Shown piece by piece: positions 21,965 to 22,687 of a stretch of DNA of 64,000 nucleotides. The DNA is from Mesorhizobium sp. RMAD-H1 (GTDB lineage: Bacteria > Pseudomonadota > Alphaproteobacteria > Rhizobiales > Rhizobiaceae), in NCBI RefSeq assembly GCF_014191375.1, contig NZ_JACHWN010000005.1, forward strand, positions 186,001-250,000, written 5' to 3'. Each line of letters opens with the position of its first letter. Position 1 is the stretch's first letter. A model generated the notes under the pieces. The model was not told the origin of the DNA, ran no database searches, and worked only from the letters and a program-made list of their open reading frames with translations. The position numbers and the translations under genes are program-made.

Positions 21965-22572
21965 ACCGCCGGATGGAAGATCGCGAGGATCGCGCCATAG
22001 GGCACCAGCATCACCGTGCCCATCAGCACCTTCACCATGAAATCGCCGAAAGCAAGTGACGTCCAGAGCGGCACTTCGAAGCCGAACCAGCTCGTCGGGA
22101 AGGCAAGCGAGGAATCCTGCATCCCGGTGAGGGCGTCGATCCAGGCGAATTGCGCCGCAAAGGCAACCGAGAAGAAGATGAGGGTATCCAGGACAGAGCC
22201 GAACATGGCGGAGGCGAAGGGCGCTTTCCACCAGGTGAGCTGCCGGAGCCGGTTGAATACCGTGATATCCATGAGCTGGGCGATGAGGAAGGCCGTGCCC
22301 GAGGCGATCGCGATGCGCGGCGTCGCCAGCCATATGGACAGCACAACGCCGATGGCGAAGCCGAAATAGACGACCTTGCGCGCTGCGGCGGGGCCGAAGC
22401 GGCGGTTGGTCAGGTCGTTGACGAGAAAGGCGACGGGGTAGCTGATCGATCCCCAGGTCAGTAGGTCCTTTATTCCGAACAGTTCGAGCGGATACTGCAC
22501 GAGGATGTTCGACGCGGTAACGGCCGCGCACATGGCGAGAATAGAGGGGATGAGGCTGCGCAATACAGACAT
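21937..22572 (-). CDS. yhhQ: Queuosine precursor transporter (YhhQ/VUT family)
   Basis: A 211-residue membrane protein of COG1738 with about six helices and family motifs YPVAFLVNDLTNRRFG and GTAFLIAQLMDITVFNRLR. Family members import 7-deazaguanine precursors (preQ0/preQ1) for queuosine tRNA modification. The start at 22572 sits directly at the end of an A-rich preQ1-like leader, whose AGGA provides the ribosome-binding site; the longer frame to 22677 would run through that leader and a terminator and is rejected. The gene overlaps the convergent esterase gene by 28 bases. Confidence 0.92.
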   Translation of the reverse strand: MSVLRSLIPSILAMCAAVTASNILVQYPLELFGIKDLLTWGSISYPVAFLVNDLTNRRFGPAAARKVVYFGFAIGVVLSIWLATPRIAIASGTAFLIAQLMDITVFNRLRQLTWWKAPFASAMFGSVLDTLIFFSVAFAAQFAWIDALTGMQDSSLAFPTSWFGFEVPLWTSLAFGDFMVKVLMGTVMLVPYGAILAIFHPAVYSASRNSR

Positions 22573-22599
22573 TTTTTTATCCTGGGTGATGGAACCAGC
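22570..22599 (-). promoter_or_regulatory. Candidate preQ1-I riboswitch over the yhhQ start codon
   Basis: On the minus strand the leader reads GCTGGTTC, CATCACCCAG, then GATAAAAAAATG. CTGG/CCAG form the P1 stem, GGTTC and CACCC match conserved preQ1-I loop elements, and an A-rich tail follows. The loop CAT can pair with ATG, so the H-type pseudoknot would include the start codon, and the AGGA Shine-Dalgarno partly overlaps P1. The gene is a queuosine-precursor transporter, the expected target. The loop is about three bases shorter than in the Bacillus example and P1 is one pair shorter, which lowers certainty. Confidence 0.5.
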
Positions 22600-22602
22600 A
22601 TC

Positions 22603-22649
22603 AGAGCATGATCCCGGTAAAGTCCGTGGACTTTTCGGATGGATCATGC
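22603..22649. repeat. Dispersed palindromic repeat, copy A
   Basis: Perfect 9-bp inverted ends GCATGATCC/GGATCATGC enclose a nested palindrome AAAGTCC-GT-GGACTTT. On the minus strand the element ends GGGATCATGCTCT, closely like the copies at 35552 and 60619. It resembles intergenic GCATGATC-type repeats common in Rhizobiales genomes. It sits between the rpmB terminator and the yhhQ leader. Confidence 0.75.
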
Positions 22650-22657
22650 GGCTGAAA

Positions 22658-22687
22658 CAAAAAGTAAGGGCCGACAAAAGTCGGCCC
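22658..22687 (-). terminator. Intrinsic terminator of rpmB
   Basis: On the minus strand GGGCCGAC, loop TTTT, GTCGGCCC form a perfect 8-bp stem followed by TTACTTTTTG. It lies 26 bases after the rpmB stop. It separates rpmB from yhhQ, so yhhQ depends on read-through or on a promoter inside the short repeat-bearing interval. Confidence 0.9.

Follow-up and report, generated by a model that had tools for sequence, protein, structure and literature searches.

The window is the whole stretch of DNA that was analysed here, at its full length of 64,000 nucleotides. On its minus strand lies yhhQ, which encodes the protein P0001, and upstream of it is rpmB (Table 1). P0001 matches TIGR00697 (queuosine precursor transporter) with 107 bits against a cut-off of 50.95, and Pfam Vut_1 with 79.4 bits against a cut-off of 27.2, which bears out the assignment to COG1738/YhhQ made in an earlier note on this DNA. 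In addition, it scores 120.4 bits with NCBIfam NF008406 (7-cyano/7-aminomethyl-7-deazaguanine transporter), a stricter model with a cut-off of 252, which is not reached.

Directly in front of yhhQ and overlapping its start codon is a compact element that can be divided into two helices, P1 and P2, and three loops, L1 to L3. It reads CUGG-UUC-CAU-CAC-CCAG-GAUAAAAAA-AUG (window 22598-22570). The minus strand of 22600-22570 is TG-CTGG-TTC-CAT-CAC-CCAG-GATAAAAAA-ATG, which continues into P0001. The parts named in the earlier note, that is, CTGG/CCAG, GGTTC, CACCC, an A-rich tail and CAT/ATG, are all present at this place. Residue numbers of the E. coli (Eco) aptamer (U6, A13, C14 and A27) are used throughout as they appear in PMC10622847.

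Table 1. Features of the yhhQ locus, parts of the element, and the queC-leader candidate elsewhere in the same genome
Feature	Position	Strand	Basis or remark
yhhQ (COG1738), queuosine-precursor transporter, 211 aa, P0001	21937..22572	minus	TIGR00697, Pfam Vut_1
Whole element, 29 nt	22570..22598	minus	CUGGUUCCAUCACCCAGGAUAAAAAAAUG
P1 5' strand CUGG	22595..22598	minus	CTAG and CCGG as compensatory variants, each in one genome
L1 UUC	22592..22594	minus	first U invariant (= Eco U6); third base opposite codon 2 in UGN-type relatives
P2 5' strand CAU, complement of start codon	22589..22591	minus	183/183 distinct leaders found with the covariance model
L2 CAC	22586..22588	minus	last C = specificity base (Eco C14), 183/183 leaders
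L2 middle A (= Eco A13)	within 22586..22588	minus	177/192 pattern-found leaders
P1 3' strand CCAG	22582..22585	minus	AG of CCAG = first half of Shine-Dalgarno AGGA
Shine-Dalgarno AGGA, half within P1	22580..22583	minus	pattern-found leaders: AGGA 160/192, AGG 25, neither 7
L3 GAUAAAAAA	22573..22581	minus	last A = Eco A27 position; 9 nt in 176/192
P2 3' strand = yhhQ start codon AUG	22570..22572	minus	reading frame and conservation
Codon 2 first base, U here	22569..22569	minus	G absent in UUC-type leaders; pairs with L1 in the UGN type
Strong hairpin GCATGATCC/GGATCATGC	22604..22650	minus	just 5' of element
Terminator-like hairpin with T-run	22658..22687	minus	homologous place in relatives
rpmB, ribosomal protein L28	22714..23010	minus	Pfam PF00830 (Ribosomal_L28) 91.1 bits, cut-off 27
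queC-leader candidate	G000:C1:385534-385573 (L352)	minus	RF00522 18.7 bits, E 0.6, below cut-off

Two hairpins lie between rpmB and the element. The one adjacent to the element has no obvious counterpart in the L007, L008 and L036 leaders and is perhaps a small repeat. In 80 of 183 leaders a terminator-like hairpin with a T-run stands no more than 90 nt 5' of the element, and in 38 of these 80 the T-run touches the first base of the element.

Conservation and pairing of the leader

The first set of loci comprised 110 members, 30 from genomes of the GTDB family (Rhizobiaceae in the wide sense) and 80 from contigs; 17 of the 80 repeat the 30, leaving 93 distinct loci. Throughout this set rpmB is directly upstream of yhhQ (110/110), the element is located 35-207 nt past the end of the rpmB match, and one loose pattern fits every locus. 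When the 93 distinct rows of 150 bases are compared, 25 of the 29 element columns hold 1.9-2.0 bits and the remaining four, which are L1 positions 2 and 3, the first L2 base and one tail position, hold 0.81-1.59 bits. One base beyond the element the information is 0.79 bits on the left and 0.35 bits on the right. As a control at the same loci, the 26 bases before rpmB average 0.48 bits versus 1.84 before yhhQ. Conservation of this kind excludes a chance origin of the element.

Eighty more distant family loci were then added to the reading, and a covariance model of the element (R1) was built from 23 sequences. R1 was run on the 93 distinct loci of the first set and on 98 of 127 later family loci, where it matches 93/93 and 92/98, respectively; the later loci not included were repeats or exceeded the number of sources that one run accepts. 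The element is absent from the other six of these 191 loci (L131, L132, L144, L145, L147 and L149). Four of the six (L131, L132, L145 and L149) belong to genomes of 1.1-1.5 Mb, of which two (G091 and G006) are also without queA. At E <= 0.02, R1 matches 355 of 394 family genomes, representing 99 of 109 genera, while 39 of the 394 have no match at this threshold. In the window's own genome the single match at E <= 1 is the yhhQ element. Across 297 genomes of the order, strong matches (47-52 bits) are confined to the family, the best score elsewhere being 23.8 bits. No element was found at any of 57 yhhQ-like genes taken from the order and class outside this family; in two of these loci (L283 and L284) the yhhQ start is uncertain. 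Six pattern matches in these 57 loci were rejected, being intragenic, distant or on the opposite strand, and none is upstream of yhhQ on its strand.

Counts at individual positions in rhizobial leaders are taken from the 183 distinct leaders found with the covariance model. An overlapping set of 192 leaders was collected by pattern; in pattern-based sets the CAT, the ATG, the first U, the specificity C and the A-run are fixed by the pattern and are thus not evidence for those positions. In the covariance-model set, the L1 U, the specificity C and the A before P2 (base -1), which are the equivalents of U6, C14 and A27, are each present in 183/183 leaders.

P1 pairs in 24/24 distinct rows of alignment A2, which include one double change (CTAG/CTAG), and a second double change (CCGG/CCGG) occurs in genome G005. 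Each represents one genome, as L115 and L369 are the same DNA. The shuffle control of A2 is weak, with 22 of 500 shuffles attaining the observed covariation score. CAU stands opposite AUG in 183/183 leaders and, because it is invariant in the family, those three pairs alone yield no covariation. Of the covariation proposed in the earlier note as a check, the part concerning P1 is present as two double changes and the part concerning CAU/AUG is not seen within the family, and the additional evidence comes from codon 2. Between groups, P2 does differ in a compensatory manner, being CCU/AGG in E. coli-like leaders versus CAU/AUG in the rhizobial ones.

From the third base of L1, the base that opens codon 2 can be predicted. 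Among the 183 leaders, 64 have a UGN loop, and here the pair is found in 64/64 with three pair types: UGC with G (13/13), UGG with C (48/48) and UGA with U (3/3). In the 119 UUC leaders the same codon position is A in 38, C in 49, U in 32 and G in 0. The pattern-based set gives the same picture, with UGC-G in 16/16, UGG-C in 50/50, UGA-U in 3/3 and G following UUC in 0/123. A quick tree made from rpmB and partial YhhQ requires a minimum of 15 changes of L1 class. For the +4 base it requires at least 34 changes within UUC leaders and none within UGG, UGC and UGA leaders. Independent-pair sign tests on the tree are not significant, as there are too few starred pairs (4 and 3), and no opposite pair occurs. 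Codon 2 encodes Gln, Pro, Arg or Leu in UGG leaders and Glu, Asp, Gly or Val in UGC leaders. As the amino acids vary and the first base is fixed, a constraint on the protein would not fix that base alone. The strictness of the rule indicates that, in UGN relatives, P2 continues through the start codon into codon 2. The comparison of leaders thus shows the element itself, P1, P2 with the AUG and codon 2, and the gene that it would control.

Relationship to known preQ1-I aptamers

The earlier note suggested an Infernal search with the Rfam model RF00522. RF00522 aligns exactly at the element and in the right register, but its score over 71 bases is 11.0 bits (E 3.2), well short of the cut-off of 39. 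It is the sole match among 4227 Rfam families at E <= 10 when these 71 bases around the element are used and is not listed at E <= 10 when 351 bases are searched. The E. coli type III aptamer, whose crystal structure is known, gives no RF00522 match at E <= 10 over either 71 or 151 bases. Since this proven aptamer is missed too, the low score is not evidence against membership, and the RF00522 score was dropped as a criterion. Folding energy was also uninformative: P1 has -3.4 kcal/mol with a z of -0.03, and P1 does not appear in minimum free energy folds of 61 or 121 nt.

More is learned from the E. coli K-12 yhhQ leader, which reads UUGGG UUC CCU CAC CCCAA ... AAAA AGG and whose linker, GGUUAAUC, is that of the published Eco riboswitch RNA. 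From a phylum search with E. coli YhhQ, 50 of 59 close homologues, taken to be mostly gammaproteobacterial, were examined, which together with E. coli gives 51 leaders. A pattern that allows AGG or AGA as the P2 strand fits 47 of the 51 (CCU/AGG in 46 and UCU/AGA in 1), where UUC and AGG/AGA are fixed by the pattern and are not evidence for those positions; L310, L312, L313 and L331 fall outside it. The base after the P2 AGG/AGA is G in 0 of the 47, which is the same exclusion as in rhizobial UUC leaders. In the Eco crystal structure, C8, the third base of L1, forms a triple with A28-U11 in the ceiling of the pocket (PMC10622847). The exclusion of G would follow from this arrangement if the C8-A28-U11 triple needs an unpaired L1 C, since a G after P2 could capture C8.

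The E. coli and rhizobial leaders share the gene, the plan of an H-type pseudoknot, the UUC L1, the 9-nt loop, the CAC L2, the A-run before P2 and, in the rhizobial case for UUC leaders, the lack of a G after P2. The short loop, regarded as a deviation in the earlier note, is not odd, since the E. coli type III loop is equally long. Type III is characterised by a short, pyrimidine-rich loop that has UU after P1 and AC before the P1 3' strand; in the rhizobial leaders UU follows P1 in 119/183 and UG in 64/183, and AC precedes the P1 3' strand in 177/192. The differences concern what is buried. In E. coli type III, P2 is CCU/AGG and covers the Shine-Dalgarno sequence, whereas rhizobial P2 is CAU/AUG and covers the start codon. 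Further, unlike in E. coli, the rhizobial Shine-Dalgarno sequence is half in P1, with an L3 of 9 nt in 176/192 leaders, and the UGN subtypes gain the codon-2 pair. The type III tail AAGG is absent as a P2 partner, with AUG in its place in 183/183 leaders, and because of this replacement the element is classed as a variant and not as type III proper. A new variant of the preQ1-I class that is closest to type III is well supported by these sequence comparisons. Type III has been described as almost exclusively gammaproteobacterial (PMC10622847).

By analogy, Eco A28 would correspond to the A of the AUG, G29-G30 to its U and G, and A27, which reads preQ1 in Eco (PMC10622847), to the A at -1. UGN members would then trade the C8 triple for a fourth Watson-Crick pair. 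Eco U7 contacts A27 (PMC10622847) and, as a third of the rhizobial members have G at this position, the pocket must differ in some respect between members.

Type II (Tte, Bsu) and type I (Can) aptamers, as well as RF00522, have in common with the element P1, the L1 U, the specificity C before the P1 3' strand and the A-rich L3. Type I and type II loops are larger than those of the rhizobial element, and a start codon within the fold is not described for either type in the portions of the literature consulted. The element also resembles direct-occlusion riboswitches such as SAM-II, in which binding of the ligand shuts a pseudoknot over the start of translation; in those switches, however, P2 holds the ribosome-binding site, as opposed to the AUG in rhizobia, plus codon 2 in a third of those sampled (PMC10907184). 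Start codons within switching hairpins of expression platforms are known, as in the add riboswitch (PMC10907184).

Ligand, mechanism and alternatives

Queuosine genes were surveyed in 34 chosen family genomes. In these, tgt is present in 34/34, queA in 32/34 and QueF above the cut-off in 21/34. queA is absent only in G006 and G091, both without an intact element, and is present in 21/21 surveyed genomes with a clear element. With tgt in every genome and queA in all clear carriers, preQ1 should exist in those cells. Loss of the element without loss of queA is seen in G004, G056, G082, G093 and G111. Seven carriers (G096, G007, G021, G049, G032, G024 and G012) have queA and tgt and no QueF above the cut-off, and their only QueC matches are weak and partial (20-31 bits, in frames of 410-627 aa). 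The Pfam QueC cut-off is 22 bits, which most of these matches formally pass, but they are taken for related ATPases because full-length QueC elsewhere scores at least 180 bits. These seven would be expected to depend on imported preQ1. Overall, the gene content is consistent with preQ1, with no split between UUC and UGN forms; as it does not separate the two, assignment of the ligand from gene content was set aside.

A second preQ1-I-like candidate precedes queC in the window's own genome, CCGG-UCG-CAGCCUAC-CCGG-ACAAAACAAGG with an AAGG tail, and is the best RF00522 match of that genome, although not a significant one (18.7 bits). A similar element is recognisable by eye in 8 of 14 queC loci (L352, L354-L358, L363 and L365). 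The candidate resembles the Tte type II aptamer. That two genes of the same pathway each carry a preQ1-I-like element supports preQ1 as the signal.

The element is very probably a translational preQ1-I riboswitch of type III architecture in which the P2 helix forms on the start codon and not on the Shine-Dalgarno sequence. The proposal of the earlier note, a preQ1-I-like riboswitch with the start codon in its pseudoknot, thus gains support from covariation and from the E. coli type III layout. The ligand, the off-switch logic and the three-dimensional details are inferred from the structure of the E. coli type III aptamer. Without ligand, the 4-bp P1 hairpin would be weak, leaving AGGA and AUG accessible to the ribosome. 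When preQ1 enters the pocket it would be surrounded by the specificity C, the L1 U and the A at -1. P1 would then close over half of the Shine-Dalgarno sequence and the loop CAU would pair with AUG, whose A, paired with U, would form the ceiling of the ligand site. Roughly one in three of the relatives sampled (the UGN loops, 64/183) has a fourth P2 pair, which joins L1 to the first base of codon 2. With half of AGGA and all of AUG hidden, initiation is proposed to be blocked, so that import of the precursor stops when preQ1 is plentiful. Type III is reported to repress a reporter in E. coli (PMC11625349).

Not every leader offers a Shine-Dalgarno sequence to be hidden. The seven of 192 without AGG are six UGC leaders and L129 (CCGGGA), and the six UGC leaders would therefore have to act via AUG alone. 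On balance we favour the view that the rhizobial elements represent a fourth preQ1-I kind. In it the start codon would be an aptamer residue with its A as the ceiling over the ligand, the UGN aptamer would extend into the reading frame and set the first base of codon 2, and the AGG-less members (6 UGC of 192) would regulate by hiding AUG alone.

The fold and the start-codon lock could be the same and the natural ligand a different 7-deazaguanine (preQ0 or queuine), if not in all members then in the UGN subtype. Here, the U7 that contacts A27 in Eco (PMC10622847) is G in 64/183 leaders, carriers G030, G052 and G104 have QueF and only weak, partial QueC matches (20-29 bits), which fits import of preQ0, and YhhQ is reported to favour preQ0 (PMC10622847). 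We nevertheless consider this unlikely, because the specificity C and A(-1) are invariant, the distribution of queA follows clear carriers (21/21 tested, against its absence from G006 and G091), and QueF does not plainly differ between UGN carriers (5/8) and UUC carriers (10/14). A separate matter, compatible with the riboswitch reading, is descent. The rhizobial element may be convergent on, and not homologous to, E. coli type III, which we regard as a tentative but appreciable possibility: no element was found at the 57 yhhQ-like genes sampled in the order and class outside the family, yet UUC-CNU-CAC is common to both groups nearly letter for letter at the same gene, and the ancestry of a 29-mer is beyond the power of the tools to decide.

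Readings that dispense with a ligand fare worse. A DNA operator or a protein-binding RNA site for an unknown regulator would account for the short inverted repeat (CTGG-N9-CCAG), its very strong conservation and its fixed place behind rpmB. Such a site is highly improbable, as conservation ends exactly at the G of AUG, the L1/+4 covariation spans about 23 nt with three pair types that recognition of duplex DNA does not need, and the type III ligand contacts U6, C14 and A27 are retained. Equally remote is a merely constrained ribosome-binding site or the target of a trans-acting small RNA. AGGA with an A-rich spacer is a good initiation region, and AGGA is present in 160/192 leaders; against this, 7/192 lack AGG and keep the rest, initiation does not require the loop CAU and the CAC, the limits on codon 2 vary with L1, and the plan is that of the proven E. 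coli switch.

The preferred reading, a preQ1-I riboswitch closing on the start codon, would have consequences beyond this locus. No description of the element was found in the portions of the literature searched, which included PMC5372724, PMC8632094 and PMC2258182. A recent review of the riboswitch family lists control by occlusion of the Shine-Dalgarno sequence (direct, indirect or by docking) or by transcription, and treats riboswitches on mRNAs without a Shine-Dalgarno sequence as an open search problem (PMC11625349). If the reading is true, the AUG-only members would make riboswitch control free of a Shine-Dalgarno sequence testable, and the natural series of AGGA, AGG and no AGG could serve to separate hiding of the Shine-Dalgarno sequence from hiding of AUG. 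The family, which includes nitrogen fixers, is large and has the element in 99 of its 109 sampled genera, yet RF00522 does not call it. The initiation codon would be placed inside a metabolite pocket, with a non-coding constraint on codon 2. In these bacteria the start codon appears to be folded into the sensor and, if this reading is true, the bound metabolite would hide the very site where translation begins.
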